A stretch of DNA of 42,823 nucleotides, taken from the IMG/VR virus record IMGVR_UViG_3300032241_000902, positions 1-42,823 of that record; one strand, 5' to 3'. Positions 2,412-39,503 of this stretch are shown here, one piece after another (position 1 is the first letter of the stretch; each line of letters opens with the position of its first letter). The notes below the pieces were generated by a model, which made no database searches, was not told the DNA's origin, and saw only the letters and a list, made by a program, of their open reading frames with translations. The position numbers and the translations under genes were made by a program. Source of the stretch: a virus.

Positions 2412-3421
2412 AGGCTATTATAAATGGATAACAAGATATTCTTGTCGTAGGTTTCGCTTTCAATATTGATAATCTGACTAGATACAATCTGATCTACACT
2501 TTCAAACGCCTGTATATCAATGTTTGTGTTAATTTCAACATCTTTCTTCTCGGCAATCAAGGTTAGTTCACGTATATCATAGTCACCAATAAACTTTTCT
2601 TTGATAAAACTAGCTTCTTCGTAAGTAATATCTATGTCTAGTGTAACACGAAGATGTTGCTTGGGCAAGATAATCGAGTCTGCTTCGTCAATAAGCTGAC
2701 TCAATTTAACTGTACGAAAGGTAGGTTGCCCTGGCCAACTAAAGTATTCTGGTGTACCTCCCCACTCTAACACCATCATTCCGCGCTCATCGTCCCATGC
2801 ATCTGCATAGTTATGAGGAAATGCATTGCCAATATAGATCATATTCTGCTGTTGTTGGCGTTTGTGGAAATGTCCGCTGAATCCTAACTCGTAATTTTTG
2901 AAACTACTAAGTTGAATTTCACCATGATCGGGCATCTGTACCATGGCATTCATAAAGAAACTGGGCAATTCAAAGTGACCAAAGATGTATTTGCCACCTT
3001 TCTTGCCTACAGCTCGCCACTCTTCTCCTACAAGCCATGGACAGAGTGTGACATCTCCAATGGTAGTCGGTTCGTGGACAACTGTAATCCCGGGAATGTA
3101 TTTGCCAAACTCAACACTATGGATGTCTCGTTTGTCTTTATAGTAAAGATCGTGATTGCCAGGAAAAAAGAAAAAATTATCAAACGCTCTTCCCAGCTTT
3201 TCCAAAGCCCTAAGGCTATAATCCATAGTAGTAATGTTGAGACTATTGCGATTGTGGTGCCAATCGCCCATAAAAATTCCTGTATCACAGCCTTGCTCCT
3301 TGGCTTTATCAATGTACCAATCGACAAAATCTTCGCAATCTTGATTGTGTATTGACGAATTACTCTTAAGACCGAAGTGTATATCGGTAAAACAAGCAAC
3401 TTTTTTAAATAAATTTGTCAT
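2408..3421 (-). CDS. 47: gp47-like recombination endonuclease subunit (SbcD/Mre11-type)
   Basis: A 337-residue calcineurin-type metallophosphoesterase, the nuclease partner of gp46. All metal-binding phosphoesterase motifs are present: DIH at residues 13-15, GDWHH at 52-56, GNHD at 88-91, the HFELP histidine at 149, and GHFH at 183-186. In this family these residues hold two metal ions (typically Mn) that drive 3'-5' exonuclease and endonuclease activity on DNA ends opened by the ATPase. The C-terminal 100 residues should bind the gp46 coiled-coil base. Its start overlaps the gp55 stop by 4 bases and its stop overlaps the gp46 start by 4 bases. The length is as in T4 gp47 (339). I see no defects in the active site. 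Confidence 0.95.
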   Translation of the reverse strand: MTNLFKKVACFTDIHFGLKSNSSIHNQDCEDFVDWYIDKAKEQGCDTGIFMGDWHHNRNSLNITTMDYSLRALEKLGRAFDNFFFFPGNHDLYYKDKRDIHSVEFGKYIPGITVVHEPTTIGDVTLCPWLVGEEWRAVGKKGGKYIFGHFELPSFFMNAMVQMPDHGEIQLSSFKNYELGFSGHFHKRQQQQNMIYIGNAFPHNYADAWDDERGMMVLEWGGTPEYFSWPGQPTFRTVKLSQLIDEADSIILPKQHLRVTLDIDITYEEASFIKEKFIGDYDIRELTLIAEKKDVEINTNIDIQAFESVDQIVSSQIINIESETYDKNILLSIYNSL

Positions 3422-4251
3422 TCTTGGCTTTCATCAAATCGTTTAATAGCAGCAGCATGCTCTCCTGAACCAGTTCTGCTGTAGCTAGGATTCATTCCGT
3501 TCATTTCTAGAATGTCATCACGGATGTTTTGATTACGTTTTTCGGTATTGATAACACGAACAAAGCTATTAGTTACGGCTGCTGTGAAATAAGCAAACGG
3601 ATTATCTGATTTGCTCTCATCAAATTGCAAGCCAATCTGTGTTAATTGTAAAATAGCCATACCTTTCATTTCATCGTTATAGGTATAACCCCGAACATTG
3701 CCACGTGTAGCATAGCGTTCGCACAACTTGATCATCATCTTAGCCAAGGTATTTGTAATTTGTCCAGCATCTTTATCAAAGTGACCTTTTTCTAAGTCGC
3801 CCTTCCAATGACTTTTGCCTACGCAGATAAGTTTTTTTGGATCCTCATCATCAAATTTCCAGTGCTGGAACGGAGGAAAGTTTACTTTGTCTCTATGATC
3901 GGCAAGACTTTTAGGATTTTTCTTACGAGTACTATTCAAAGGGATATGATCAAAGCTCATAATTCTAAAAACAACATCTGTTTTACCTATTTTTTTGTAG
4001 TCAACTTCGCAATCTGCTTGTTTAATTTTCTCTCCCAGCGCCTTACGTCTTTGATATTCAGCATCTCCTAGACGTTTAGCTTGATTACGTTTAGCTTCTG
4101 CTATGCTTCTAATATTAATTTTATCTACACTAGGCAGAATGAGATCATATTGATGATATTCAGGTTTGATAAAACTGCAATACGAGCTTTTTGACTTATG
4201 GATCTCAGCTAACATATCTTTGTTATTTAGGTAATTTACTTTTGCGTTCAT
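3418..4251 (-). CDS. 55: late-transcription sigma factor, gp55-like
   Basis: A 277-residue homologue of T4 gp55, which replaces sigma70 on host RNA polymerase and recognises TATAAATA late promoters. Two blocks align by eye with T4 gp55: the N-terminus KVNYLNNKDML (T4 KYNYVNNKELL), and the sigma region 2-like core at about residues 160-250, including GYTYNDEMKGMAILQL, LQFDESKSDNPFAYFTA and FVRVINTEKRNQNIRDD. Between them lies about 120 residues absent from T4 gp55 (185 residues), containing basic stretches and VNFPPFQHWKFDDEDP. The T4 C-terminal clamp-binding peptide (SLDFLYE) is not recognisable; the protein ends AAIKRFDESQE. It is first in the minus operon, behind a sigma70-type promoter, with an AAAGGA ribosome site 11 bases before the start. 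Confidence 0.92.
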   Translation of the reverse strand: MNAKVNYLNNKDMLAEIHKSKSSYCSFIKPEYHQYDLILPSVDKINIRSIAEAKRNQAKRLGDAEYQRRKALGEKIKQADCEVDYKKIGKTDVVFRIMSFDHIPLNSTRKKNPKSLADHRDKVNFPPFQHWKFDDEDPKKLICVGKSHWKGDLEKGHFDKDAGQITNTLAKMMIKLCERYATRGNVRGYTYNDEMKGMAILQLTQIGLQFDESKSDNPFAYFTAAVTNSFVRVINTEKRNQNIRDDILEMNGMNPSYSRTGSGEHAAAIKRFDESQE

Positions 4252-4276: not shown

Positions 4277-4305
4277 ATTATAAACTACGCACATTAAAAA
4301 GTCAA
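4277..4305 (-). promoter_or_regulatory. sigma70-type early promoter for the gp55-gp47-gp46 operon
   Basis: Read on the minus strand, TTGACT (4305-4300) and TATAAT (4282-4277) are separated by exactly 17 bases. This matches the bacterial sigma70 consensus at 11 of 12 positions. Predicted transcription starts near 4270, giving a leader of about 19 bases that opens almost directly with the AAAGGA ribosome site. The -35 hexamer shares base 4305 with the oppositely oriented late element at 4305-4312. Confidence 0.75.
4283..4294 (+). promoter_or_regulatory. 12-base late-promoter upstream element, copy 1
   Basis: AACTACGCACAT is repeated exactly at 10336-10347, and with 9 of 12 matches at 28987-28998. 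In each case it ends exactly 12 bases before the TAAATA of a late promoter, so it would sit near -37 to -26. Here it also lies inside the spacer of the opposing sigma70 promoter. Function unknown. Confidence 0.5.
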
Positions 4306-4312
4306 CTAAATA
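4305..4312 (+). promoter_or_regulatory. late promoter (gp55-type) for the tail/baseplate run
   Basis: ACTAAATA, a variant of the T4 late element TATAAATA, lies 23 bases before the ATG at 4336. The ribosome site is AGGAA at 4325-4329. The predicted transcript starts near 4318. The 12-base element AACTACGCACAT (4283-4294) precedes TAAATA by 12 bases, as it does before gp6. Confidence 0.6.
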
Positions 4313-4335: not shown

Positions 4336-5388
4336 ATGGCATTTGGTGATAGCTTACTTCAAACCGTTTCAAACGTTAACGGCCTTGCCAACGGCATTTC
4401 TGCTGGAGTTAACCTTGCCAACAATTTAAGTTCTGCTTTGAGCACAGGGCTTAATATTGCTGGCGGAGTATCTAGTGCGCTACGCAGCATCAACTTACCT
4501 GCCGGTGGAGATCCAACTGGCGGCCTACTTGGATCTGCTTCAGCTACATTTGGTGGAGATGCTAGTCCTGCTGATTGGCGAGTTCGATTAAGCATGGCTA
4601 ATGCTCCTAGTTTTCAAAATAGTTCTGTGCTAGCACCATTAAAACAAGCTGGCGGATTAGTATTTCCATATACACCCTCAATTAATATTGCTAGCAGCGC
4701 CAAATATAGCCAAATACAAACAACGCATACCAATTATACATTTCAAGCATTTCAGCATAGCGAGCCGGGAACTATTACAATTACAGCCCCAATGAACGTA
4801 GAAGATTCAACACAAGGGTTATACTGGATTGCTGCCGTGCATTATTTAAGAAGTTTGACTAAAATGTTCTCAGGATCTGATGCATTGGCCGGTAATCCTC
4901 CTCCAGTTATATTTTTAAACGGTTACGGAAATTATGTTTTTAAAAATATCCCTGTAGTAGTAACCCAGTTTCAAACTACATTGTCTAATGATTGCGATTA
5001 TATTGCAGTTGGTGCACCAGCTAGCGATGCAGGAAGTAGTAGTCCTTTAGGCGATATTGCATCTGCAGCCAGTGCTATTGGTGGCATAGCAGGCATTGCT
5101 GGTGCTATACCAGGACTTGGAAATCTTGCCGGACAAGTAGGTAGTATTGCCGGTGCTGTAGGAAATCTTGCCGGTGCTGCAAATGCTGTTGGCAATTTGT
5201 TAGGCGGTGCCGGCGGCGGCGCAGTTGGTCTTGGTGGCGCTGTAACCGGTGATGTAAGTCATGTGCCAACTAAAAGCGAATTTACAGTTACTCTGCAACC
5301 GGTATATAGTAGAAATAGTTCTAGATATTTCAGTTTAGATCAATTCGTATCAGGTGGTTATTTGAATAATCAATTTGGATATATCTAA
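4336..5388 (+). CDS. tail-tube-like/baseplate structural protein (gp48/gp54 candidate)
   Basis: A 350-residue virion protein, first gene of the late run. Residues 80-226 and 309-350 look like one beta-rich domain of the tail-tube type, with PYTPSINI, TITAPMN, the block NPPPVIFLNGYG and then NIPVVVTQFQTTL, closed by PTKSEFTVTLQPVYSR and FSLDQFVSGGY. From memory, these phrases recur in baseplate/tube proteins of marine T4-like phages. Candidates are the tube-initiating proteins gp54 or gp48, but I cannot assign which. Two regions are odd: residues 5-70 and an internal segment at 229-307 are almost entirely Gly, Ala, Ser, Leu and Ile, like hydrophobic helices, and the second interrupts the beta domain. 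It is followed 2 bases later by gp53. Confidence 0.6.
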   Translation: MAFGDSLLQTVSNVNGLANGISAGVNLANNLSSALSTGLNIAGGVSSALRSINLPAGGDPTGGLLGSASATFGGDASPADWRVRLSMANAPSFQNSSVLAPLKQAGGLVFPYTPSINIASSAKYSQIQTTHTNYTFQAFQHSEPGTITITAPMNVEDSTQGLYWIAAVHYLRSLTKMFSGSDALAGNPPPVIFLNGYGNYVFKNIPVVVTQFQTTLSNDCDYIAVGAPASDAGSSSPLGDIASAASAIGGIAGIAGAIPGLGNLAGQVGSIAGAVGNLAGAANAVGNLLGGAGGGAVGLGGAVTGDVSHVPTKSEFTVTLQPVYSRNSSRYFSLDQFVSGGYLNNQFGYI

Positions 5389-9898: not shown

Positions 9899-10333
9899 AT
9901 GTCTAGCCTATTTACAAAAACACAAGTATCGTCTGCGCCTGTGGCTAGCCATCCAGGTTCTAGGAGATATAGAGGGTTTAGCACAGTAAGTACACATACT
10001 GAAAATTATAAATTATACGATTTTGAATTGATTAAACAAGATTTGTTGAATAATTTTTATGTTCGTCAGGGCGAAAGACTAATGAATCCTACATTTGGAA
10101 CAATCATATGGGACGTAATATTTGAACCATTAACTGACGAATTAAAAAATGCAGTACTACAAAATGTAAATCAAATTTTTAACAGTGATCCTAGGATTCG
10201 CGTAGGTAGTATTGTTATTACTCCGTACGAGACCGGTTTAGAAATACAATGTGAATTAATATATGTGCTGTATAATATACAACAAAAATTGCAAATGCAA
10301 TTTGATCAAGCCAATGGATTTAGCCTACAGTAA
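9899..10333 (+). CDS. 25: baseplate wedge protein gp25
   Basis: A 144-residue member of the GPW/gp25 family, the most conserved wedge component in contractile tails. In T4 it forms the (gp6)2-gp25-gp53 core and nucleates sheath assembly. The family core is obvious: DFELIKQDLLNNFYVRQGER (41-60), then MNPTFGTIIWDVIFEPLTDE, LQNVNQIFNSDPRI and a C-terminal strand ending IYVLYNIQQKLQMQFD. The N-terminal 38 residues are a Ser-rich, probably flexible extension beyond the T4 start (T4 gp25 is 132 residues). A very strong ribosome site precedes it. The next gene, gp6, begins 50 bases later behind its own late promoter. Confidence 0.93.
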   Translation: MSSLFTKTQVSSAPVASHPGSRRYRGFSTVSTHTENYKLYDFELIKQDLLNNFYVRQGERLMNPTFGTIIWDVIFEPLTDELKNAVLQNVNQIFNSDPRIRVGSIVITPYETGLEIQCELIYVLYNIQQKLQMQFDQANGFSLQ

Positions 10334-10335
10334 TT

Positions 10336-10347
10336 AACTACGCACAT
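10336..10347 (+). promoter_or_regulatory. 12-base late-promoter upstream element, copy 2
   Basis: AACTACGCACAT is identical to 4283-4294 and, as there, ends exactly 12 bases before TAAATA. The intervening bases also share TCAA just before the promoter. It lies in a 50-base gap between gp25 and gp6 that has no gene on the other strand. Confidence 0.55.
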
Positions 10348-10357
10348 AATTTTATTC

Positions 10358-10365
10358 AATAAATA
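10358..10365 (+). promoter_or_regulatory. late promoter for gp6 and the giant baseplate gene
   Basis: AATAAATA matches the T4 late consensus TATAAATA at 7 of 8 positions and lies 18 bases before the gp6 start. The ribosome site AGGA at 10374-10377 is 6 bases before the ATG. No other promoter is evident before the 15 kb gene downstream, so this element probably serves both. Confidence 0.65.
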
Positions 10366-10383
10366 CACTTATTAGGATAAATC

Positions 10384-13300
10384 ATGAGCTCAACGGATAG
10401 ACAAAATAATCTTTTAATTGCCGAAAACTGGCAAAAAATTTATCAGTCTTTTAAAAACGCAAACTTTCAAAGCTACGATTTTGATAATCTGCGTCGTACG
10501 ATGATTGATTATATCCGTACAAACTTCCCAGAAGACTTTAACGACTACATCGAATCAAGCGAGTATCTTGCTCTAATTGATCTTATTGCCTATATTGGCC
10601 AAAGTATTGCATTTCGCGTAGACCTAAATGCACGTGAAAACTTTTTAGAACTAGCAGAACGCCGTGACAGCATTTTACGACTAGCACGTATGATCGGCTA
10701 CAACGCTAGTAGAAATATTGCTGCCAAAGGCTTGTTAAAATTTAACACAGTTAGCACAAGCGAAAATGTAATTGATAGCAACGGACGAAATTTATCTGGA
10801 CAGTATATAACTTGGAATGACCCTAGCAATGCTAACTGGCACGATCAGTTTATCAAAGTTATTAACGCTGCACTACCTGCAACTAGTCAATTTGGTAATC
10901 CTATAGACAGTGCAACAATTTACGGAGTCCCGACAGCCCAATATAGATTTAATTCTTCTAATACTAACGTTCCAATTTATAATTTTAATAAAACTGTTTC
11001 TGGACGTAGTATGAATTTTGAAATTACTAGTACTACTTTCAGCGGGAAAACGTATATCTACGAAGAAGCTCCTAAAATTGGCAATCAAATGGCTTGTGTT
11101 TATAGTGACGATGGCTTCGGAGCAAGTAGTCCAGGTACTGGCTTCTTTTTTAATTTTACACAAGGTACAATGAATACCGGCGCTTTTACAGTTAGTCAGC
11201 CAACTAGTAATCAGCAGATAGATATTGCTACACAAAATATTAATAATACCGATGTATGGTTATACAGTTTAGATCAAAGTACTGGTTTAGAAAACACATT
11301 ATGGACCCAAGTTCCTGCTACAACTGGAAATAATGTAATTTACAATAGTCTAAGTGCAAAAATTAAAAATATTTATAGTGTAGTTACACGAGCAAGTGAT
11401 GCTATTAGTCTAAGTTTTAGTGACGGAACATTTGGTAATTTACCTTTGGGTAATTTTAGAACTTACTATAGAGTAAGCAATGGTTTTAATTACACTATTA
11501 ATCCTGCAGACATTGTTAACATCGTTGTATCTATTCCTTATACAAGTGCAAAAAATACAGCAGAACTTTTAACAATTAGTCTTAGCCTTGCTACTAGCGT
11601 GACAAACGCTGCCACATCTGAAACAAATGCCAGCGTTAAAACTAATGCTCCACAGACATATTATACACAAAATCGTATGATAACTGGCGAGGATTATAAT
11701 ATTAGTCCCCTTAGTGCTAATTTAAATGTAGCCAAAGTGCAAGCTGTTAATAGAACCAGTAGCGGAATAAGTCGGTATTTTGACCTAACAGATCCAACTG
11801 GAAAATACAGTAAAACAACTTTGTTTGCAGACGATGGTGTCATATACAACGAAAATTATAATTCAACCGCAAATTTTACCTATGTCACACAAACAGACAT
11901 TCAAGGTGTTATCTATAACAAAATTTACGATATCTTAAATACTCCTAATTTGAGAAATTTTTACTATTCAAATTATTTAGATTTCTTAAACGTTAGTCTT
12001 AATATTCAATGGAATGCTGTTACTAATGATAGCAACACTTCAAGTGGATATATCAGTCTTGTTTCTTTACTTTCTGGTAATAACAATGCACCTTTGCAAG
12101 TTGGGTCATTTACCGCAACAGATTTAAAATATCTCACAGTAGGATCTATAATAAAATTTACAGCTCCTGCTGGTTATTATTTCAATACTATTACAAACAA
12201 ACTAGTAGCAGGAACAGCTACAGTTCCAAATTCGTCAAATTACTTATGGGCTGAAGTTGTTAGTGTAGCAGACGATGGTACAGCCAATAATACAGGAGTA
12301 TTATCTACAACAACACAAGGTCCGATTGTATTGAATAAATCGATTCCTTCGCTTGCTGTTGCTACACAAATTATTCCTCAGTTTGTAACAACAATTAGTC
12401 CTACTGTCATAACAACTATGATAGATTTAATATTTGCTAATGACAGCTTTGGTTTGAGATATGATGCTACTACACAAAGTTGGCAAATTATTTTTGCAAA
12501 TAATTTAAATGTTACAAATCCTTTTAGCCTTGGTAATCAGGGCGATACTAGTAATCTTCAATTAGATTCTAGTTGGATGTTATTGTTTACAACAAACACC
12601 GTTCAGTATACCGTGACAACACGTAATCTACGATATATATTTGAAAGTGATAATCAGGTAACTTTTTACTTTGACAGTAACACCACTATCTATGATACTA
12701 TTTCTAGTAATACAGTTTCAGATACTATTAAAGTTTTAAGCATTAATTCGCAACCTGATCTTACTACTCCTTTTACACAAGATTTAACTTGGCAAATTGT
12801 AAGCGAGTACACTGGTCAAGATGGATATATTGATCCTAAAAAACTTGTTATAACTTTTGCTGATTCCAACGGAAACGGAATTGTAGATAATCCGCAATTG
12901 TTTTTAGATATTGTTGCACCATCAACTAATCCATTAACAAAATATATTGTGGAACAGAAATACGCTATTTCCGAAGGACAAGAAGATTACAAATATGTTG
13001 CTAATGATCCAAGTTCAGGCCCAGTTTTAATATTTCCGACCCAGGCTAGTGCAGGAGCTTTAACACAATATGCAGATGGTACTTATTTCTACTTTGTAGA
13101 TACAGCAACTGTGTTTAAATTGACACTATCTACCGGACAGTTAAGTCCTAGTTTAGATTATGAAGTGTATATTGGCCGACCAGAATTAAAATTTCAGTAT
13201 GTACATAGTGCTGATTATAATAGTAGAATTGACCCAGGTGCAAGTAATATCATAGACATTTATGTACTAACAACAGATTATGATTCTGCTTTTAGACAAT

Positions 13301-13866
13301 GGGTGACCAACGGTGCTACAGGGACAACACCATTGCCTCCAAGCAGTGATCAGTTAAACACATTGTTAAGTCCAAACTTAAATCTAATAAAATCTATCAG
13401 CGATGAAATAATTTATCACCCTGTTAGTTATACATTGTTGTTTGGAGCACAAGCCGATCCTAGTCTTCAAGCTACTTTTAACGCAATGATTAACCCATCT
13501 AGTGCTGTATCATCTGCAGATGTTCAAGCAAGAATTTTACAAGCAATTAATACATTCTTTGCTTTAGAAAATTGGAACTTTGGAGATACATTTTACTTTA
13601 CTGAATTAAGCACTTATGTAATGAACAAACTAGCACCTGATTTAATTTCGTTTGTAATTGTTCCAAGCCAACCAGGTTTATATTTCGGCAATTTATTTGA
13701 AATACAGTGTGCAACTGATAATATATTCTTAAGTTGTGCTACGACAGCTAATATTGTTATTGTTACCGGACTCACCGGAACTAATTTAAAAACAATCAGC
13801 TCTACACCTACAAATAGTCTTACCAGTAATCAGTCAGTGACTACTGCTCCAAACACAGGAAAATAA
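10384..13866 (+). CDS. 6: baseplate wedge protein gp6 (enlarged)
   Basis: A 1160-residue homologue of T4 gp6 (660 residues), the wedge subunit that dimerises to form the inner ring of the baseplate. The N-terminus is the most recognisable part: NWQKIYQSFKNANFQSYDFD, then YIRTNFPEDFNDYIESSEY and ENFLELAERRDSILRLARMIGY (about residues 84-105). The C-terminus, near residue 1053, reads INTFFALENWNFGDTFYFTE, the baseplate-J-like helical end that contacts neighbours. Between these the protein is mainly Ser/Thr/Asn-rich beta sequence, and most of the extra 500 residues relative to T4 lie there. It is followed after 4 bases by the giant gene, whose ribosome site lies within the gp6 coding end. Confidence 0.9.
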   Translation: MSSTDRQNNLLIAENWQKIYQSFKNANFQSYDFDNLRRTMIDYIRTNFPEDFNDYIESSEYLALIDLIAYIGQSIAFRVDLNARENFLELAERRDSILRLARMIGYNASRNIAAKGLLKFNTVSTSENVIDSNGRNLSGQYITWNDPSNANWHDQFIKVINAALPATSQFGNPIDSATIYGVPTAQYRFNSSNTNVPIYNFNKTVSGRSMNFEITSTTFSGKTYIYEEAPKIGNQMACVYSDDGFGASSPGTGFFFNFTQGTMNTGAFTVSQPTSNQQIDIATQNINNTDVWLYSLDQSTGLENTLWTQVPATTGNNVIYNSLSAKIKNIYSVVTRASDAISLSFSDGTFGNLPLGNFRTYYRVSNGFNYTINPADIVNIVVSIPYTSAKNTAELLTISLSLATSVTNAATSETNASVKTNAPQTYYTQNRMITGEDYNISPLSANLNVAKVQAVNRTSSGISRYFDLTDPTGKYSKTTLFADDGVIYNENYNSTANFTYVTQTDIQGVIYNKIYDILNTPNLRNFYYSNYLDFLNVSLNIQWNAVTNDSNTSSGYISLVSLLSGNNNAPLQVGSFTATDLKYLTVGSIIKFTAPAGYYFNTITNKLVAGTATVPNSSNYLWAEVVSVADDGTANNTGVLSTTTQGPIVLNKSIPSLAVATQIIPQFVTTISPTVITTMIDLIFANDSFGLRYDATTQSWQIIFANNLNVTNPFSLGNQGDTSNLQLDSSWMLLFTTNTVQYTVTTRNLRYIFESDNQVTFYFDSNTTIYDTISSNTVSDTIKVLSINSQPDLTTPFTQDLTWQIVSEYTGQDGYIDPKKLVITFADSNGNGIVDNPQLFLDIVAPSTNPLTKYIVEQKYAISEGQEDYKYVANDPSSGPVLIFPTQASAGALTQYADGTYFYFVDTATVFKLTLSTGQLSPSLDYEVYIGRPELKFQYVHSADYNSRIDPGASNIIDIYVLTTDYDSAFRQWVTNGATGTTPLPPSSDQLNTLLSPNLNLIKSISDEIIYHPVSYTLLFGAQADPSLQATFNAMINPSSAVSSADVQARILQAINTFFALENWNFGDTFYFTELSTYVMNKLAPDLISFVIVPSQPGLYFGNLFEIQCATDNIFLSCATTANIVIVTGLTGTNLKTISSTPTNSLTSNQSVTTAPNTGK

Positions 13867-13870
13867 TCTA

Positions 13871-16800
13871 ATGGCCAATAATAATGTTATCGGTGAAAAA
13901 GGACTTAGTGCAAATTTACTACCTAAGTTTTATCAAACTATAGCCAACAAAAAGTTTTTACAATCTACAGTTGATCAATTATTTCAACCAGGTACACTAA
14001 CAAAAACTACTGGATATATCGGTAGAGAAAATGCTAAAGCTAGTACAGGTGCAGATGTATATGTTAAAGCTGCAGATGCTATTAGACAGAACTATCAATT
14101 AGAACCCGGAATAACGGTTACTGATAATCTGGGTAATGTAACATTTTTCAAAGATTATGTTGACTATATTAATCAAATTAATGTATTTGGCGGAAATACT
14201 AAAAATCACAATCGATTAAACAAACAAGAGTTTTATAGCTGGGATCCCCATATTGATTGGGATAAATTTGTTAACTTTCAAAATTATTATTGGCTTCCGT
14301 ACGGACCTGATACTATTACGGTATACGGACCTCATGCTACTATTAATACTACTTACAATGTAAAAATTCAATCAGAAGGTGCAAACAATCAATATATCTT
14401 TACTCCAGATGGTGCAACACCAGATCCTGTATTAAAACTTTACAGGGGAGTAACTTATACTTTTAATATTAGTAGTCCAGGCAATCCTTTTAGTTTTAAA
14501 ACAGTACGATCGTTAGGTACTGACCATCGTTATTCTTACTTAACATCTATAGATAATTATGGAGTAACATCAGGAACGGTTACATTTACTGTTCCTGAAA
14601 ATGCGCCTAGTATACTTTTTTATCAAAGCGAAACCGATATAAATTTAGGCGGAGTTATTGAAATATTTTCAATAAATGCAGATACTACTATTGATGTTGC
14701 ATCTGAAATTTTAGGAAAATCTTCAGTAACGTTGCCTGATGGTACTGTATTAAGCAATGGAATGAAACTGGCTTTCGGAGGAAATGTTACTCCTGCTGAA
14801 TATGCCAATGGTCAATTTTATGTTGAAGGTGTTGGCATAGCAATTAAATTAATCCCTGAAACAGTATTAGAAGTAGTGAGCACTTATTCTACAAATGAAT
14901 CCATACCTTTTGATAGTGTAGGATTTGATAAAGAACCTTGGGAAACAGCTACCGGATATGCAGGATCTGTTGATTATATTACAATTAATCGAGCAAGTCG
15001 CGATCATAATCCTTGGTCAAGGTATAATCGTTGGTTCCATCAAGATGTCATTAATGCTAGTGCAGTTTACAATAATAACACTCCTATTTTAGATCAAACT
15101 TCAAGAGCTACTAGACCTATTATTGAGTTCCAGTCAGATTTAAGATTATTTAATTTTGGAACAAAAGCTATTATAGATGTTGATATTTTAGACAATACAA
15201 CTGGTAATACTAGTTTAAACAAAAATGCTATACCAGTATTTACAGCTATAGAAGGACAAACTGGGTACAATGAGCCTACAACAGTAGCAACTGTATCTAT
15301 TGCACTATCTCCTGGTATGCTAGTATTGTTCACAGGTGATCCAGATCCTTTAGTACAAAATAAAATTTTCCGTGTAGAGTATTTAGACGTAAAACATTTA
15401 AACGGCGGCAGCAATCAGTTGCACTTAGTTGAAGTAGCAACTCCGGAATTGGACCAAGTAGTACTAGTTAAACAAGGAAAATTTCAAGGACAAATGTTCT
15501 GGTTTAACGGAACAACTTGGATTCAGGCACAGCAAAAAACTACAGTAAATCAACCACCACTATTTGATATTTTTGATAGTAATGGAGTAAGTGTTGGAGA
15601 TACTACAGTTTATAACGGCAGCACATTTATTGGAACTCGAGTATTTTCTTACAAACAAGGTTCAGGATCAGCTGATAATGTTTTAGGATTTCCGCTAAGT
15701 TATCAAAATGTTAGTAATATCGGTGATATTGTTTTTAACTTTAATCTGGTAACTGATACTTTTGAGTATAAAAAAACAGCTATTGTTGAAACACAAAAAC
15801 TTGATTCTGGATTCTTATCTATCTTGGACTATGCAGGAAATACAGAATATGTCAATGGCTGGCAAACCTGTAAAGTCGATTCAGCACAAGCAGCAATAAG
15901 AATTTATAAAAATTCAGGATTAGTTAATAATTTTAGAATAGACATTTACGATGATATTAATAGTCTATCAGATCTCGTTGTCAGAGTTTATATAAATGGC
16001 AAGAGATTAGATCCTAGTCTGTGGACTTTAACTAATAGAGGATTGTATAAAAACATTCGATTAACAAACTCCATTGCACTAACAGATGTATTGACTATTA
16101 AAGCATTTTCAGCGCAACCTATTAATAGTAATGGATATTATGAAATTCCTGTTAATTTGCAAAATAATCCGCTAAATGCCGAGATTGGAGATTTTACTCT
16201 AGGGGAAGTTATCAATCATGTTGATAGTATTATCGATAACTTATATCAAACTGTAAACAATCAAGGAATGTTGACTAGCCAATTTGTTGGAGTATTCCCA
16301 GGCGACAGTGATCTGCGCAATCTTGGGAATGTAACTCCTTACGGAACAAAGTTTGTACAACACAGCGGACCGTTGAGTCTAGGAATTTATCATACAACTT
16401 CTGAAACTAATAATATAATTAAAGCAATAGAGCAATCTAGAGAAGATTATAATAATTTCAAAAGAAACTTTATCAGTACTGCTACTAATCTAGGTATAGA
16501 CGGCGACCCTGTTACTATTGTTAATCAAGTTTTACAAAAATTAAATGCAGATAAACCGCATGTTGCTCCATATTATTTTAGTGATATGGTGCCGTACGGG
16601 GCATGCGTAGTAACTGATTTAACTGTAATTGATCACAGAATTCGTCAGTATCCATTGAGTGCTGTATTCACTCTTGATACACTGAGCAACAAAGCTGTAG
16701 GTGTATATCTTAACGGAGTACAATTAATTCACGGACAAGATTATACGTTTAGTAATCAAGGATTTGTTATTATTGATTCTAGTGTTTCTATTATCAATGG

Positions 16801-19800
16801 TGATACAATCAGTACTTATGAATATGATAGTACTGATGGATGTTTTGTTCCTTCTACACCTTCTAAACTAGGTATGTGGCCTGTATATGCTCCAAAAATA
16901 TATACAGACACAGCTCTTGTAGACCCACAAACTGTTATTCAAGGCCACGATGGAAGCGTTATTCTTGCCTATGGCGACTACAGAGATGAACTGTTACTGG
17001 AATTAGAAAAAAGAATTTTTAATAATATCAAAGTCAAATATGATACAGATATCTTTGATATAACAGACTTTATTCCAAGTTATAACAGATCCACAGATTA
17101 TAATGTATCGGAATTTAATGAAGTATTAGCTCCTAATTTTTATAAATGGACCAGTTTGGTTGGAAAAGATCTAACTACTCCGTTAAACTACGACAGAACA
17201 AATAGTTTTACATATAACTATTCTTTCAATACAGCACCGGATGGAACAGGATTGCCAGGTTACTGGAGAGGTGTGTATCGCTGGTTGTTAGATACCGATC
17301 GTCCTAATATCTGCCCTTGGGAAATGCTAGGATTTAGTATACAACCATCGTGGTGGATAGCAGTCTATGGGCCTGCTCCGTATACAAGCAACAACTTACC
17401 AATGTGGCAAGATATTGCAGCAGGCATTGTAAGGCAGCCAGGAGTACCTATTGCCTATAAACCTAAATTCGCAAAACCATTTTTAGTAGATCGTTTACCT
17501 GTAGACGAGTTTGGCAACTTGATTAGCCCGCAACAATCAGGTCTAGCTACTGGTATGGTTCGACCAAGAATTGATAATAATTTTGTATTCGGCGACGGTA
17601 GTCCAGTTGAATCTGCGTGGGCACGCAGTAGTTACTATCCATTTTCAGTAATAATTGCTTCTATTCTGTTAACACCTGCAAAATCATTTGGTATTCTATT
17701 AGACAGATCTAGGATTTCTAGGAATGTAGCAGGACAACTTGTATATTCAGAAACTGGTTTGCGTATTAAGCCGTCGGACATTGTACTACCCAGTGTCTAT
17801 TCAAGTACTACTCGAGTTCAAACAGCTGGCTTAGTAAATTATATTGTTGATTTAATTTTTAATTATATTTTTAGTAATAATATTGTTGGTTATAATTCTT
17901 ATGCAACTGATCTTGCAACAATGGATGTAAAACTAAGTTATAGAGTCGGTGCATTTACGAATAAAAGTCAATTTAATTTGTTGTTAGAGTCTAAGACTCC
18001 AAGTAGTTCGGGTAATGTTTTTGTTCCTACCGAAGATTATTCTGTATTCTTAAATAAATCCAGTAGTGTTGAAAAGTTGGTATACAGTGGAGTTGTAGTA
18101 ACTAAGCTATCAACTGGTTTTGAAATAAAAGGTTACAGTATTACTCAACCATATTTCAAATACTATGCACCGAAGAATACCGGTGTGTCGATTAATGTTG
18201 GAGGCATATCTGAGAATTTTGTTAATTGGTCAGAAAATCAAACTTATACTACTGGTACAATAGTTCAGTATGGTGGAAAATACTATAGAACAATTTCTAT
18301 GGTCACATCATCTACTAGCTTTGATTCGACAGAATTTGTTCCTTTGAGTAGTCTGCCTATTACTGGCGGCGCAAATGCTTATATAAGAACTGGCTGGGAT
18401 AAATCTACAACTTTAGTTGCACCTTATGGTACGCTATTTGCAACTATTCAGGATGTAGTAGATTTTCTAATAGGGTATGGAGAAAATCTAAAAGATCAAG
18501 GATTTACATTTGACGATTTTAATAATAATCTAGATTTAGTGGCTAACTGGGAAACTAGTGCACGAGAATTTTTATTCTGGACTACACAAAATTGGAGTTC
18601 AGGACAGGATAAGTGGAGCGACTGGGCACCAAATCAACCTTATACTTACGGTAGTATTGTAAGATACGAAGGAGATTATTATAGCGCATTGACCAACATA
18701 GCTGTCTCTTCGCTGTTCGATTCTACCAAATGGTCCTTATTACCAGGGTTGAGTAATGTTGGTAGTAGTGTTATCAGTTTAAGTCCTAGTGCTAATGGTA
18801 TAAACTTTACTACAAATCTCACAGTAGTTGATAGTATAACTAACAAATTTAATCCTTACGAAATATTTAAAGTTGACGGTACTCCATTAGAAGTTGCTCA
18901 TATCGATAGTTATCGTCAAGAAAATAATGTAACTTACAGTCCTAGAACTACTGACGGTATATACGGCGCAGCGTTTTATCTAGTACAAAACGAACATGTA
19001 GTTGTCATTAACAATTCTACTATTTTTAATGATGTAATTTATAATCCAGCTAGCGGCTATAGACAAGAACGACTAAAAGTCAGTGGCTATATTACAAATG
19101 GTTGGTACGGTGGCCTAGACATTCCAGGATTTATTTTTGACGCTGCTGCTATTGAGTTATGGCAACCTTATAAAGATTATAATTCAGGCGATATTATATC
19201 TTATCAAAATTATTATTATAGTGCAAATAAATTTATTGCAGGTGAATCTAAGTTTACAGCTTCAAATTGGACGCAACTATCAGGAAAACCTACAAGTCAA
19301 ATTTTACCCAATTGGACAAATAGTGCAACACAATTTAGAGATTTTTATAGTTTAGAAGTCGATAGCTTCGATACCGCCCAACAGCAGATGGCACAGCACT
19401 TAATTGGATATCAAAAGCGACAATATCTTCATAATATCGTCCAAGACGATGTTAGCGAATTTAAATTCTACCAAGGAATGATTCGTGAAAAAGGAACACA
19501 GAATGTTCTTAATAAATTATTTGATGTACTGAGTTCTGACGCAGAAGAAAGTCTAACATTCTACGAAGAATGGGCGTTGCGTGTAGGACAATATGGAGCT
19601 GCTAATGCCTTTGATGATGTTGAATTTATTTTAGATCAAGGAAAATTTAATAGAAGTAATCCGCAAGCAACTGTACTGGTTAATAGTTTTGATAGCACTA
19701 TTAATCCTTTTGTGATCCAACAGACGCCTAATGATGTTTATGTTAAACCCCTAGGTTATGAGTCAACTCCATTCCCTGTAGTAGAAAACTTTCAACCTTT

Positions 19801-22800
19801 CTTAAGAAGTGCAGGCTATGTTAATACAGCAGATGTGTTTTTAAGTTTAGGTAGCATTTCTCAACTAACTAGCCAAACAGTGGATACTATTACATCTGGA
19901 GTTTACTATGTTATTTTATCTGTAGGTACCACTGATTTTACACAATTAGGTGCTACTAGTAATACAGCAGGAATATCTTTTAAAGCATCCAGTGCCGGAA
20001 TTGGAACTGGAACAGTTTCTGTTGATGTTACACAAGTAAATGAAGGTGCATATATTTGGTGTGCATTTGATAACACATTTAGTGTTAACAGTTGGAATGT
20101 TTATAGATTGACAGATGTAAATATTCGTGTAGAAAATTTAACTTATAGTAACAATGTTTTAACAATAACTTGTCAAAATCTTGTAAAATTAAGTGTAGGT
20201 TCTTATATAGGACTAATGCTAGATACTAGTATATCTATCAAAGGACTAAACGGGTTTTTCAAAATTACAAGTGTAAAACTGAATACATTTACAGTATCGG
20301 CAACTGTAACAGGTTTACCTACACAGTTTAATAATGCTGCAAATTTAATTGTCTATAGTTTAGTATCACAAAGATCTAATTCGATTGATACAATAGATAC
20401 TATACTTCCTAAAAGTATTAAATCAGGAAATTTTATTTGGACAGACGATAGCGGTGACGGTAAATGGGCATCGTGGATATATAATCCTGTTTATAAAAAA
20501 TCGTCTATTTCAAATGTTTTAACTTCAAATAATTTACAATTTGGTAGAAACATTGCAATGAGCGTCCAGGGAAATATTGCAGCTGTAAGCATGCAAACTG
20601 GCCAAATTAGTACATATGATAAAATTGGTCGATCTGTGGCTTGGACACAGCGACAATATATTCAAGTACCTTTTATTGCAAATAATAATGTAAATGCTAT
20701 TAATACTATTGCAACAACGCTTGCTATTAGTGCTGACGGATCTTGGCTTGCTACAGGTTCACCAGCAGCAGGATTTATAGCAACTAGATATGTAGGGCCA
20801 TACAATTCTTCTAATACGTACTCAAGTGGTGACATTGTATCTTATTCAGATATGTATTACAAGGCTGTAGTATCGGTTCCTACAAATCAAACTCCAAACA
20901 CAGCTTCTTACTATTGGAATCTTGTTTTTTATATTCCTGTAGATCTTACAGCCAGTAATTCAATTTTAGCACAACAGGGTGTTATTAGCCTATATAAGAA
21001 AGATGCTAATAATTTATATCAATTAGTAGATAGTATTATTAGTCCAATACCTTCGGCAAATGAAAATTTTGGATCTAGCTTAGTCTTTGATGATAATAAT
21101 TTGTTTATTGGTGCTAGCGGATACAATAATTCAACTGGAAGAGTTTATAAATTAACCTATAATACAGTCGAAGAATTTTATACATTCTATGACGACATAG
21201 GTAGTTCAGGAAAAACTATTAAAGTTTTGAGTTCCGCCGGAATTGTTGCTGGACAATCTGTTAACGGCACAGGGTTCACCAAAGGCCAACTAGTTGATTC
21301 AGTATTGACTAGACTAGTGTTTACAGCTATTAGCGGCTTACCAGGGTATATTCGGGATACTCAAAATAATAATGTTCCAATAACATCTATTACAGCCGGA
21401 ACAATTGTATCGGGAACTGGTATTTTTAACAATACATCTGTAGTAAGTGCTGGAACCGATGTTAGTGGTAAAAGTTACATTTTAGTTCGAAGTGTACAAG
21501 ATTTAGCTCCGACAATTTCAACAATTATATTAACTAATGGTACTACATCTTTTAATGTAATTGTTAATTCTGTAGTAAGTGCAGCAACAATTATTTTAAC
21601 ACAGGCACCGGACTCGACACCGTCTGGAAAATTAACTTTTTCCACTACAGCGTGGCAATACTCTGGAATTATTGGATACGGCGACGCAATTAATAATTTT
21701 TACGGAAGCCATTTGTCTTTAAGTTTAGATGGATCTACATTATTAGTATCAGCTTCTGGCGGCCATGTTGGCAAAGTTTATATCTATCGTCCAGGAACAA
21801 CAGTACAAACAATTACAGGGCTTGACAATAGTTTTGGTTCAAGTACTGCTATTTCGTCAGACGGTGATTATATTGCAATAAGCAACGAATTATCTGCAAC
21901 TAGTAAAATTAATGAGCACGGAACTGTTGGAGTATACAAACTTACAAACAATCAGTTTGTTAAGATACAAGATATTCGTGATCATTATCTTGATCTTGGT
22001 AGCAACTTCGGAACTAAAGTTGCTTTTATGAATAATTCATCTACCTTGGTAGTTTATAGTGAAAACGCTGCAGGTTCGATTGAAACAACTATCGATGTAT
22101 ATTCTGTGTTACTATCAAATAGTCAGACCTTGTATGGTACTCCTTATGTTAATAGTACTGATTTAAACAAATCATTAACAGCAACTACATTTGATAAGGA
22201 ATCGACAAAGTTTACTACAACAGTGCCAGGGAGCGGGCGCATTGATATCTATGATAGATATAATACTACTTGGGTCTATAGTGAAAGCATTGTAAACGAA
22301 GATCAACAATTAGACGGCTTTGGTTTAGGTTTTGCTGTTGGTAACAATAATATTCTAGTAGGTTCGCCTTTGGCAACAGTTAAGACTAATCTTAATTCTG
22401 GATTGGTTTATGCTTATACTAAATCACTGAACGCTTTAAGCTGGACAAAATTCAGATCGCAAATCGATGTTGTTGATATTAGTAAACTTAAAAAATCTTT
22501 CTTATATAATAGAATTAATAACGAACTAGTAACTTATTTAGATGTTATAGATCCAATACAAGGAAAGATTGCAGGACCGGCAGACGAAGAAATAAAATAC
22601 AAAACATTTTATGATCCAGCGGTGTATTCCTATTCTGACGGAACTGTCGATGTAACAGTTAGTAACGGTACATATTGGTCCAATAATCAGTTAGGTCAAT
22701 TATGGTGGGATCTCAGAACAACTAAATTTGTTACTCCTTATTTTGCAGATGTAGCTTATAGAAACAATATATGGAATCAACTTGCACCTGGCGCAAGTGT

Positions 22801-25800
22801 GGATGTCTATGAGTGGATTTCTACAAACCTTACACCAAACCAATGGGATGCGCAAGCAGATACACCTGCTGGGCTAGCTCTTGGTATAAGTGGTACAAGT
22901 TTATACGGAAACAGTGTATATACAGTTCGCCAGCGTTATAATTCAGTCACACAAAAATTTGTTAATACTTATTACTATTGGGTTAAAAATAAAGCCCTTG
23001 TTCCTACAGTAGCTGGCCGACAAATTTCTGCACAAGCAGTATCTAATCTGATTTCTAATCCAAAGAACGCTGCCTATACATATATGGCACTGATTGGAAA
23101 AGATTCTTTCAGCCTAGTTAATGCTTACCAATATCTTAGCGATACCAAGATTGCCTTGGCGGTTGAATATTGGAATACTGATAGTATACACCGAAACATA
23201 CATAGCCAATGGAAATTAATCAGTACTGATACCAGTGTCGATCTTCCACATACTATTGAACAAAAATGGATCGACAGCTTGTGTGGTGTTGACACAGTTG
23301 GTCGCCCTGTTCCTGATATTAATTTGCCGTTTAAATTAAAATATGGCATTGAAAATCGCCCTCGTCAAGGTATGTTCATCAATAGAGTAGAGGCACTAAA
23401 AGAATTTGTCGAAGCTGCTAATATTGCATTAGCAATAAATCAAATTGTTAAAAATTATAATTTAACTGGATTAGAATCTTACGATGCTGAACCTAATGTG
23501 ATTACAGGCTTGTATGATACAACACTAGATACTTCTGTAGAATTATCGTATGTTAATACAGCATTATTCCAACGTGCTATACTAGTACCGATTATTACTA
23601 ATGGAAATATTACTGGAATTAATGTGGTAAACTCGGGAAAAGGTTATCTAATTGCTCCATATGTTAGTATTATTGGTCCAGGCAAAGGCGCAGTTGTTAG
23701 AGCAATCATTGACACTCTAGGTAGAATTGTAAATGCAACTATAATATCTCCAGGATATGGTTACGATAGTACAACTACCTGTAGCGTAAGGGATTATAGT
23801 GTACTAGTGCATAGTGATTCTCAAGCAAACGGTGCTTGGAGTATCTATTCTTTTGACCCAACTTATATTGATAATGCATCTGGGCTAGTCACTGGATTAT
23901 GGTCTAGAATTTTAACACAAAGTTACGATGTTAGAAACTATTGGACGTACATTGATTGGTACGGGTCCTATTCTGATGCTACAAATAAAGTTTTATACAC
24001 AGCTACACAATTTACAGCTGCTGATCATATTGTACAAACTTATGCTGATTTAAATTCTATCTCAGTATCAATTGGAGAAGTAGTTAAGGTAGCAACAGTT
24101 AATACAGGCGGATGGGAGCTTCTTTACAAGTATGCAGATTCCACAAGTATTGATTGGACATTAAGTTACAGTGTAGTAGGTATACAAAATGGTACAATAC
24201 AATTAAGTAGTAGTTTATATCAAACTGATTTTACAGCGGTAGGCTACGATGCTAGCATCTATGATGGTGGGTCGTTTGACGTTAAGGCGGCCACTGAGTT
24301 AAGATTAATCTTAACAACATTGAAGAATGATATCTTTATTAATACACTAAAAGGAACTTATTTAGATTTATTCTTTAGAAGTGTGCGTTATGCACACAGC
24401 GAGCAATTGTATCTTGATTGGATATTTAAAACTAGTTTTGTTAGAGCTACTCATAATGTAGGTGCTCTAGGACAACCTGTGTACTATCCTATTGATAATC
24501 TAAGTAATTTTCAAAATTATGTTGATGAAGTTAAGCCTTACAAGACTAAAATTCGAGAATATATAAGCGATTATACAGCACTAGATACTGCAGAATCTGC
24601 TGTTACAGATTTTGATTTACCTCCAGTGTATACAAATAATCAATTAACATTGATGCATACACAAGTAGTTAATGAAAAAATTAATGTAGACTCGACACAA
24701 ATAAACACTTATCCTTGGAAATTCTGGGCAGATAATACTGGATATACTGTTACTGAATTAAAGATTGTTGATGGAGGCTCAGGCTATATCACAGAACCGC
24801 AGATTGTTTTTAGTAGCTCTAGTGGATCAGGGGCAACCGCGGTAGCTTACTTTACAAATGGTGTTATCAATAGATTAATATTGTTAACGTCTGGTCGAGG
24901 GTATCTATCTGCACCTACAGTAAGTATAATTGGCGGCTTAGGCATTGGCGGCGTTGCTGCTAGAGCTATTGCAATAATTGGCGATGGAGTAGTTAGATCT
25001 AATCTAGTAGGAATAAAATTTGATAGATTAACCTATGGCAATTATATTACAGATATAAATGTTACGACTACCCACTCAGGATCGGGTTCTTTATTACAAT
25101 TTTCATTAGAGTGGGCTCCTGATATTCGTGTAGGGCAATCAACTGTTACAATTGACAATGTATTAGTTCTAAGAGAATTGTATACACTATCTATCGTTAG
25201 TTCAATTAAATCTGGATATACACAGTACTCTGGAATAATAACGTTTACCTCGCCCCCGACTAAAGGGTCTGCAATCGTAATAACATACAAAAAAGATGTT
25301 TCTTTACTTAATGCTGCAGATAGAATTGAATTTTTCTATAATCCTGTAACCGGAGAACTAGGTAAAGATTTGAATCAGCTAATGACAGGAATCGATTACG
25401 GCGGAACTATTGTAGGAAATTTAGGGTTTAATACGGGGCTCGGGTGGGGCGAATTTGTCTATGCAACCCAAGGCTGGGATACATTTGACCCAGCATTTAA
25501 TGACTATATCGTAACTGTCGACGCCGGTACTAGTTTTAATTTTACATTACCATATACTCCTGCACAAGGTACAGAAATTAATGTATATTATACTGAAAAG
25601 TTGTCAACATCTGTTGTATCGGATGGTGTGCAACTGATGTATCCGTTTAGTGTATATTTGTTCCCAGTAGAAGCTACGATTCAAACAATACTAGCCTCTC
25701 AAACACCTGCGCATGTTACAGTTTCGACAAATGTTGCTAATCCAACACTTGATTTATTCTCTATCTCAACAAATGTTCAGGCTTCTTTAGTTGCAGAATC

Positions 25801-28800
25801 TGGCACCGCTGGTCAATCAACTATTGTGTTTAGTAATGTACTTAATGTAGTTTTTGGTCAGTATGTATCAGGAGTTGGCGTAGAATTTGGTACAACTGTC
25901 TCTGGTTATACGGAAACAACAGTAATTTTATCTAATAATTTATTTTTAGATGCAACTGGATCTTACACATTCTTTTCTTTAGGTAAAATTTTAACTGTTA
26001 CCGATACTTCAGGCATTGGAGTTGGGATGGGTATTGTAGGCAATGGGTTTAACACACAGTATGTAACTAAAATTCAAAATTCTACAACTTTATACATTAG
26101 TACTCCGCCTTCTTCTGTTATCCTATCAGGCGAGTCTCTTATTTTTAGTGGAAATGTTGCAGGTTCGACAACACTTTATTTAAATTCGGTCGCTAATATA
26201 AATGTTAATGATGTTGTAACTTGTAGTCAAAATTCTGTTCTTGGATACAATACTACAGTAGTATCTATAGATGCAATCAATTCTGCTGTTGAATTGAGTC
26301 AGATTTTATACTCTAGTGTGATAAATGATATTAATTTTACATTTAGTAAAGTACTACAACAGCCAACAGATGCGTCATCATTTCCAAATGGTACTTTGTT
26401 ATTAACTAATCCTGTTCCTGCTGGTAGTACACTTGTTATTTCTGGTTATCCTGCTGTTGGTATTCGTATAGATGCAGAAGATTTTGACCCTAATACCGGA
26501 ATATCGCAGACTAACCCAAATGCTATAATGCCTTCGGTAACAATATCAAGAGTGAGTTCTCAATATTTGACAGTTAATTCATTTGCAGACGGCAGTACAA
26601 CTTATACAATCAATGTGCCGCTCACTTATGCACCTGAAACAGATGGTAGTATTGTTATAATACGTCAAAGTACTAGTGACGGCACTATTGCTCCTGTAGA
26701 AGTAGATACATACTTGACTAGTGGAGATCTAAATTATTCGAATGGAATTTACCTCACAGCATCAGGAATAAGTGCAGATGATATTGTTATGGACGGCGAT
26801 GGATTCGTTACTACAACAACCAGTCCTGCACCAGAAGAAGTTGTTCCTGGCCAAGTAGTAGATGCACTAGCTGTTAAAGTATATGACAGACCGACTTCAG
26901 GAAGTGCAAAAATTGATGTTGAAAATTATATTGCATCTGGATCTATGGCAACTTTTAATTTAAAAGAATCCCTAAGTAGTAAACGTTCAATTATTGTTAA
27001 AGTTGATAATGCTATTCAAACATTGAATATAGATTACACAGTCGATTATGAAACACAATCGATTACTTTTGATACCACACCGTCTGCCGGACAAGTAGTA
27101 ACAATCTTTAATATTGGTTATGCAGGAGAAAATATTTTAGATATTGACTATTTTGTAGGAAATGGAGTAACAACTGAGTTTATTACAAAAGCTCCGTGGC
27201 TAGATAGTGTTTCGTCTGCAGTCTATATTAACGGTGTTGCAAGCAATGTACAATTGTTCAAAACAGATAATTCATATTTGTTAAGCAATCTAGTTGGTAT
27301 TAGATTTATCAATGCACCAACAAGCGGAGTTTTAATTAATTATATTATTGTTAGTGGTAATCAGCCAACATTTGCTATAACTAATACAGAAACTATTGCT
27401 GCAAATGGCAATACTTCATATACCTTAGCATACCCTATTGGAGAAACATTGCCTGACGAACCTAATATGATAGTTCGTGTTAATCAGCAAATTTTACCAG
27501 GACCAGTATCGGTATATTTTACTATTGCTAGCAATAGACTAACTTATACAATTGATAACAATCGTGTACCTCCTTACACGGTATCAGCTGCTGATGTTGT
27601 TGTAACTGTCTCAGGTGTTATTTTAGTTGATGGCAAAGATTATGTTTTAGATCTTGGAGGCGTGTCTATAAAAATTACTAAAGAAATTTATAAACAATAT
27701 TCAGGAAAACAGATAGTAATTAGTGTAAACACTGGCCAAGGATATACATATAATCCATCTACCAGACAAATTACATTCTCTACTCCATATTCTAATACAG
27801 ACATAGTGGAAGTATTCAGTGCATACCGTCATGATACTTTAGACTTGCAAAGAACTGCAATTACAGTAGATTCTAGCGTAAATCTAACACCAGATTCTAT
27901 GGAATTTTATTCCTATCAATCAATTATTGGCGGGACTATTGTATTAGATAGAAGTGTGTTAAACGAAAGCTATATTTGGGTAGTTAAAAATACTGAATTA
28001 CTAACTCCGGGCGTTGATTATAAATTAAATGATGATCATACAAGTATTCAACTAGCTCTTAATCCTGATATAACTGATACTATCACTTTAATTACATTTG
28101 GTAGCAATATTATTAAATCCGGAATATCATATATGCAATTTAAAGATATTCTTAATAGAACTTCTTACAAGCGTTTAAATGCTAACAAACGTAGTAAACT
28201 AGTTACCGATTTGCATTGGAATAGTACTTCTATCGAGTTAGAGGATGCAACTAACTTTGAAACGCCTGCACAAAACTTAAATATTCCAGGAGTAGTCGAG
28301 ATACGAGGTGAACGTATTGAGTATTTTGGTAAAATTGGAAATATTTTAATTAATCTACGTCGGGGCACTCTAGGAACTGGTATTAATACTTTAGTTAAAA
28401 CTGGGAACTTTGTACAGGATATCGGCAGAACAGAAACGATTCCATACCAAGATTCGGTTAGTACTAGTACCATTGTATCAAATGGCACAAATACAGTACC
28501 GTTAGGATTTGTACCTAAGTCGGTTAACGAAATAGAAGTATTTGTCGGCGGCTATGATATTAGTGCTGTATGGGCATCAGGTGTTGAATACTCTGTAGGG
28601 ACTGTGGTTAATAATGGAAGTTATACATATCGTTGTATTACAGCACACACTAGTGGGTCTACATTTTCTCTAGATTCTGCTAACTGGGCGTTTTTCATTG
28701 GAAATATCAGGCTTAAGAAAGAATCTTATAAGGTATTTAATGTTAATGTTGCTCCGTATAGCCCGGCCGGTGATGTAACATTCCCTGCAGACTTTTCAGT

Positions 28801-28981: not shown

Positions 28982-28986
28982 TGATA

Positions 28987-28998
28987 AAATACTCAGAT
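28987..28998 (+). promoter_or_regulatory. 12-base late-promoter upstream element, degenerate copy 3
   Basis: AAATACTCAGAT matches AACTACGCACAT at 9 of 12 positions and ends exactly 12 bases before TAAATA (29011-29016). The spacing is the same as for the two exact copies, which is why I list it despite the mismatches. Confidence 0.4.
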
Positions 28999-29008
28999 AA
29001 TACTACCA

Positions 29009-29016
29009 GATAAATA
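29009..29016 (+). promoter_or_regulatory. late promoter before the gp8-position gene
   Basis: GATAAATA, 7 of 8 matches to TATAAATA, sits 20 bases before the ATG at 29037, in the 55-base gap after the giant gene. The ribosome site is AGAGAG at about 29025-29030. It probably transcribes the small structural gene and the first two fibre genes, which follow with almost no gaps. Confidence 0.6.
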
Positions 29017-33833: not shown

Positions 33834-33841
33834 TATAAATA
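33834..33841 (+). promoter_or_regulatory. late promoter, perfect TATAAATA, before fibre paralogue C
   Basis: TATAAATA is an exact T4 late consensus, 22 bases before the ATG at 33864. The ribosome site AAGGAACGAG is at about 33850-33859. The 49-base intergenic gap holds nothing else that I recognise. The 12-base upstream element is absent here. Confidence 0.75.
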
Positions 33842-35381: not shown

Positions 35382-35389
35382 AATAAATA
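35382..35389 (+). promoter_or_regulatory. late promoter before appendage protein 1
   Basis: AATAAATA begins immediately at the fibre C stop codon and lies 22 bases before the ATG at 35412. It matches TATAAATA at 7 of 8. The surrounding 30 bases are almost all A and T. Confidence 0.55.
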
Positions 35390-36390: not shown

Positions 36391-36398
36391 AATAAATA
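36391..36398 (+). promoter_or_regulatory. late promoter before the Ig-array appendage protein
   Basis: AATAAATA lies 23 bases before the ATG at 36422, with AAAGGTAG ribosome sequence at about 36411-36418. A TATAAT hexamer (36404-36409) follows it, but its -35 partner is poor, so I favour the late promoter. Confidence 0.55.
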
Positions 36399-39474: not shown

Positions 39475-39503
39475 TTGACAAGATAATTAAACTAGTATAT
39501 TAT
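39475..39503 (+). promoter_or_regulatory. sigma70-type promoter for the glycosyltransferase operon
   Basis: TTGACA (39475-39480, perfect -35) and TATTAT (39498-39503, 5 of 6 for -10) are separated by 17 bases. The predicted start is near 39510, followed by the ribosome site GGAG at 39513-39516 and the ATG at 39523. There is no TATAAATA here, unlike the fibre genes, so this operon should be read by host sigma70 polymerase early in infection. Confidence 0.75.

Follow-up and report, generated by a model that had tools for sequence, protein, structure and literature searches.

Late transcription in phage T4 is the textbook case of promoters without upstream recognition that are activated by the replication clamp. 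The -35 region of T4 late promoters has no sequence conservation, and gp33 contacts only the DNA backbone in the region upstream of the late -10 element (PMC2988020, PMC7892883). The sites of the T4 protein DsbA are A/T-rich and of low affinity, occur at two promoters and have no effect on late transcription in vitro (PMC2988020). For the jumbo phage CBB, an ATAAATA late motif has been described together with a -35-like motif, TGAAACG, which is unrelated to the dyad presented below, and neither a gp33 nor a gp45 homologue was reported (PMC5259590).

The stretch of viral DNA analysed here (the window, 42,823 nucleotides) shares two traits with T4-type late transcription, namely TAAATA elements upstream of virion genes and a sigma factor of the gp55 family of its own, and departs from a third, in that a dyad is conserved upstream of TAAATA where T4 has no -35 conservation. 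The window encodes a gp55 of 277 aa together with SbcC- and SbcD-like proteins; a virion operon, in which a tail-lysozyme hub gene and gp25 are found, is followed by gp6, by an ORF of 5036 aa and by genes of tail-fibre type. The gp55-like gene lies on the minus strand (3418..4251; phrog_12791, E=7.7e-73; phrog_234), and residues 148-239 of its product match T4 gp55 in PDB entry 7d7c (E=1.3e-5). At its N-terminus the protein is about 125 aa longer than T4 gp55, and for this strongly conserved extension a model of moderate confidence gave no significant PDB fold match; its C-terminal tail is polar, and an obvious hydrophobic clamp-binding end was not seen. Judged by gp55 and gp6, the window is most closely related, among named phages, to PA5oct, Phosso, Atu_ph07 and the jumbo phages 121Q, RaK2 and CBB, with identities of 32-47%. 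The 5036-aa ORF runs uninterrupted from 13871 to 28981, directly 3' of gp6, and in PA5oct, Phosso and Atu_ph07 this position is taken by large virion structural genes.

A dyad at fixed distance from TAAATA

A sequence-only reading of the window had drawn attention to a 12-mer, AACTACGCACAT, repeated exactly at 4283-4294 and 10336-10347 and ending in both cases 12 bases before TAAATA. Our check of the sequence bore out the coordinates, the distance (TAAATA at 4307..4312 and 10360..10365, both on the plus strand) and the intergenic position of both sites, in a window of which only 3.4% is intergenic. The TCAA that was thought to be shared is present in both gaps, though its register is off by one base between the sites; at site 1 it is part of the reversed TTGAC of the gp55 -35 hexamer, which site 2 lacks. 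The first TAAATA lies upstream of a 350-aa virion structural gene (4336..5388, plus strand; phrog_12050), called gp48-like from gene order only, and the second upstream of the 1160-aa gp6-like baseplate wedge gene (10384..13866, plus strand; phrog_10646, E=4.5e-294). The record holds no other exact copy of AACTACGCACAT. On a rough estimate from base composition, pairs of TAAATA sharing a 12-mer are expected 8e-5 times at one given offset and 0.002 times over 29 offsets.

The earlier reading had set a fixed spacing in relatives against random placement, and a search of relatives for the 12-mer with its spacing found gap 12 to be enriched. We scanned 2.9 million viral contigs of IMG/VR for AACTACGCACAT-N(0-30)-TAAATA and obtained at least 119 stretches; among the 120 matches listed, 91 have gap 12 and 13 have gap 11 (104/120), with five or fewer at any one of the other gaps from 0 to 30. 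In loci fetched with gp25, the 12-mer with up to 3 mismatches occurs 46 times at gap 12, against 3 times for the rest of the gaps from 0 to 40 taken together. Site counts, here and below, are inflated by the common ancestry of the relatives and do not represent independent events. We reject a chance repeat of the 12-mer, since the spacing is kept both in the IMG/VR matches and in the loci fetched with gp25 and other proteins.

The 12-mer is the asymmetric, readable part of an 18-bp dyad, with the halves ATWAWNTRC and GYANWTWAT meeting at its centre, and is not a one-sided -35 box. A near-perfect palindrome (ATTAACTACGTAGTTAAT) stands at the same position upstream of the tail-tube genes of relatives, and in 80 tail-tube loci the best match to the palindrome AACTACGTAGTT has gap 11 in 64 and gap 12 in 14 (78/80). 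Column frequencies among 21 tail-tube representatives are mirrored about the centre (A13 G8 at -2, T13 C8 at +1), and 46 of 50 distinct 18-mers have 6-9 of their 9 pairs complementary, as against about 1.3% of genome 18-mers. Such mirror-image columns indicate a symmetric dimer as the binder. A one-sided weight matrix had masked the symmetry because its sites were chosen by the asymmetric 12-mer.

When up to one mismatch to the symmetric consensus ATWAWNTRCGYANWTWAT is allowed, the window contains three matches (at 4280, 10333 and 28984), all of them intergenic and all at late promoters, compared with 0.4 expected from shuffled sequence. The predicted operator at site 1 (4280..4297; ATAAACTACGCACATTAA, 1 mismatch) lies between the gp48-like gene and gp55 and is kept in gp55 loci, while that at site 2 (10333..10350; ATTAACTACGCACATAAT, 0 mismatches) lies between gp25 and gp6 and is kept across gp25-gp6 intergenic regions. 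Site 3 (28984..29001; ATAAAATACTCAGATAAT, 1 mismatch in the centre), which the sequence-only reading had missed, is a weaker, degenerate predicted operator; its 12-mer, AAATACTCAGAT, lies at gap 12 from a TAAATA (29011..29016, plus strand) upstream of a 203-aa gene (29037-29648; phrog_11259), and its counterparts in the relatives G001, G003 and G004 are still more degenerate. Literature searches with the palindrome string returned only one unrelated paper, and those on late-promoter upstream elements returned nothing matching. Elsewhere in the window, at 39492-39508, a perfect inverted repeat of 17 bases (CTAGTATATTATACTAG) forms a second operator-like site that differs from the dyad in sequence; it overlaps the -10 of a sigma-70-like promoter at 39475-39503 (TTGACA 39475-39480, N17, TATTAT 39498-39503) preceding a 116-aa ORF at 39523.

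Targets and placements among relatives

By sequence, the element is found in a large group of uncultured T4-like phages, where it is predicted to act on genes of the tail and baseplate, on gp55 and on a conserved gene of 94 aa. A search of 50,697 phage records turned up no cultured member of this group, those nearest to it being PA5oct-like. A second scan of IMG/VR, with the palindrome AACTACGTAGTT, gave at least 100 distinct sites; among the 100 listed, 57 are at gap 11-12, and the genes that follow them are those of the tail tube, gp48-like protein, gp6, gp25 and the gp26-like hub. Twelve sites at gap 0 were set aside, as they mostly look like the coding sequence of one gene. Gap 11-12 to TAAATA is found before genes of several unrelated families, namely those of the tail tube, the gp26-like hub, gp6, gp25 and the gp48-like protein as well as the 203-aa gene, so that the spacing to the core promoter is fixed across unrelated genes. 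When up to 1 mismatch is allowed, a distance of 10-13 bases to the following TAAATA is kept by 52/53 distinct sites in gp25 loci, 60/62 in gp55 loci and 54/54 in tail-tube loci, all fetched by protein similarity; the consensus read backwards, as a control, has 3, 2 and 2 matches in the respective loci.

At the same threshold, six large relatives (79-356 kb) carry 2-7 dyad sites each, and 3 of the 7 in the 356-kb relative are the tail-tube, gp48-like and gp6 promoters, with likely chance matches among the remainder. No site was found in G020, a contig that the palindrome scan had picked up at gap 7, and PA5oct, Phosso, Atu_ph07, SCTP-2 and 121Q have 1, 0, 0, 3 and 0 matches, which is no more than the backward-read control. 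In most relatives a stem-loop followed by a T-run, resembling an intrinsic terminator, lies immediately 5' of the dyad at the tail-tube genes (L399-L478), so that tail-tube transcription appears insulated from upstream genes.

Other placements occur as well. The dyad is reversed at one promoter (G004, 7060), and at some other genes it abuts, overlaps or follows TAAATA. For instance, it abuts TAAATA upstream of the gp26-like genes in G001, G003 and G004, and of 66 distinct regions 5' of the 94-aa gene, most have it just 3' of TAAATA and about 10 have an additional copy upstream. In G016 (356 kb; L605, ~1470-1500) a dyad directly 3' of TAAATA (MKKVVFINGGAGR...) precedes a 307-aa gene, a further possible target outside the tail genes.

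A different situation is found at gp55 itself. Read on the minus strand, the sequence through site 1 is that of a sigma-70-type promoter, divergent from the virion operon and made up of TTGACT (-35; 4305-4300), 17 bases and TATAAT (-10; 4282-4277), which the operator overlaps, with the gp55 start following at 4251. The GTCAA and ATTATA around the 12-mer at site 1 are therefore this promoter reversed. TTGAC-N17-TATAAT occurs without mismatch in 59/65 distinct gp55 upstream regions of relatives, and the dyad spans the spacer in 29/30 distinct TTGACN-N17-TATAAT promoters from gp55 loci. Since site 1 is both the spacer of the gp55 promoter and the upstream region of the divergent TAAATA, two promoters are within reach at once, and one site can, to judge from this arrangement, act on the gp55 promoter and on the promoter of the divergent tail operon together.

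A possible dual regulator and its alternatives

At tail and baseplate late promoters the centre of the operator lies 17.5-18.5 bp 5' of TAAATA, or about -29/-30 from the expected start site. In T4 numbering, taken from the contacts at -12, -9 and -8 (PMC7892883), TAAATA would lie at about -11 to -6 and the dyad at about -38 to -21. The element looks like the docking site of a two-part regulatory protein, which would govern the switch to tail production. Our main reading, to which we give a probability of about one half, is a dual regulator that, as a dimer at the dyad, would activate the late tail promoters and repress gp55. At tail and baseplate promoters the bound dimer would contact the gp55-RNA polymerase and activate transcription, and in the -35/-10 spacer of the gp55 promoter the same dimer would block the host-type polymerase, so that one binding event would turn synthesis of the late sigma factor off and the divergent tail operon on. 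A dimer at a fixed spacing to the -10 element fits an activator touching the gp55 polymerase, and a dimer within the sigma-70 spacer of gp55 fits a repressor. From the observed dyad, its spacing, its gene set and the gp55 promoter sequence we infer that a protein binds the element, that this protein is a dimer, and whether it activates or represses at a given promoter; the putative regulator is most likely phage-encoded.

In some phages the site overlaps the -10 or the start site of the 94-aa gene and of gp26-like genes, which suggests repression there, and given such repressor-like positions, activation at the other late promoters is read from the spacing alone. The dyad could instead be the operator of a pure repressor, a dimer blocking every promoter that it occupies (gp55, the tail operons and the 94-aa gene), for example in order to delay tail relative to head genes, or for later shut-off. 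A site just 3' of TAAATA at the 94-aa genes, sometimes with a second palindrome upstream, one abutting TAAATA before gp26-like genes and one occupying the sigma-70 spacer of gp55 are all positions typical for repressors; however, blocking does not require a spacing as strict as the gap of 11-12 that unrelated tail promoters keep, and we consider this reading possible though rather improbable.

That the phage exploits the site of a host transcription factor is unlikely. Our searches name no phage binder, and the form of the operator is typical for bacterial dimeric regulators, but the element stays with the orthologous phage genes in many aquatic contigs that are unrelated to one another and presumably belong to phages of different hosts.

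The sequence-only reading had proposed either a site for an activator, which survives here, or a -35 contact made by gp55 itself, and the latter we regard as very unlikely. Direct recognition of a -35-type element by the enlarged gp55, or by a gp33-like protein bound to the flap, would agree with the position of the 12-mer at about -35 to -24 and with the conserved N-terminal extension. Against it stand the symmetry of the dyad, its reversed use and other positions, and the fact that it also lies within a sigma-70 promoter, the one that drives gp55. Moreover, PA5oct, Phosso and 121Q have an enlarged gp55 of the same family (40-47% identity across 91-99% of the query) and lack the element, and the dyad is absent from three late-type promoters of the window, with TAAATA at 33836..33841, 35384-35389 and 36393-36398 (plus strand), all before tail-fibre-type genes. 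A structural element in DNA or RNA (a hairpin, or a replication or packaging signal) is highly improbable, as at late promoters the element lies upstream of the transcript, its dyad is interrupted and degenerate rather than a strong hairpin and its spacing to the -10 is fixed, even though an inverted copy near the 94-aa gene can pair with it.

As the regulator, the 94-aa protein is the leading, though doubtful, candidate. Its gene is present in all four large relatives, and near its promoter the element occurs as often as three times, but family, PDB and fold searches with the protein show no DNA-binding match. We did not adopt it as the regulator, because it has no recognised DNA-binding fold and because the gene is also present in PA5oct, Phosso and Atu_ph07, which lack the element. 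Just 5' of its start codon, across the ribosome-binding site, lies the inverted copy (L319-L398; e.g. L321 TAAATATATGCGTACATATTTGGATACGCATAATG), whose arms show a full match to the element in 24 and a near match in a further 26 of the 64 cases scored. When transcription reads through from upstream, element and inverted copy could pair as a hairpin in the transcript, a structure that would be missing from late transcripts. A homologue of the 94-aa protein with 57% identity is found in a contig of a Caballeronia temeraria isolate (L630, 513 kb), among small genes without assigned function, a region that is possibly phage or prophage.

Comparison with known systems

In T4 middle promoters a MotA box near -30 is combined with a sigma-70 -10 element, and the likeness to our element lies in an activator site some 30 bp 5' of the start that replaces the -35 element. 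The MotA box, however, is not a dyad of this sequence, and its partner is a sigma-70 -10 rather than TAAATA; the element in the window, which pairs with TAAATA, thus does not form a MotA-dependent middle promoter. Lambda-type switches have a dimer operator between divergent promoters, where one binding event can affect both, though here one promoter of the pair is of sigma-70 type and drives a late sigma gene, and the other is a late promoter of gp55 type. The RaK2/121Q/PA5oct/CBB jumbo phages have the gp55 family, the gp6 family and the gene order in common with the window, but the dyad is absent or at control level in the phages scanned (PA5oct, Phosso, Atu_ph07, SCTP-2 and 121Q). T4 DsbA is alike in being a small phage DNA-binding protein with sites that overlap late promoters (PMC2988020), whereas here a defined 18-bp dyad stands at a fixed spacing.

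There is also a likeness to the T4 late promoter with gp55, gp33 and gp45 (PMC2988020, PMC7892883), in the TAAATA-type -10 before virion genes and the gp55-family sigma factor. The T4 activator gp45 is a DNA-tracking clamp that is not site-specific, whereas in this phage a subset of promoters has a sequence-specific dyad. A profile of the gp45 clamp (PF02916) had no match in five large relatives, whose records are possibly partial, and control genomes also fell below the cut-off. As a tentative possibility, clamp-driven late transcription may be replaced or supplemented in these phages by a site-specific dimeric activator dedicated to tail genes that also represses the late sigma gene. If the dual regulator is real, these phages would have a built-in switch separating tail from other late expression, and, so far as the literature searched shows, no late promoter of gp55 type would have been known before to carry a sequence-specific site for an activator. 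The dyad offers a direct way to look for the regulator and to study the timing of head versus tail synthesis in T4-like phages. Set against T4, it would be an added sequence-specific layer in some relatives, a large group of aquatic phages, directed at tail genes and also at the late sigma factor.
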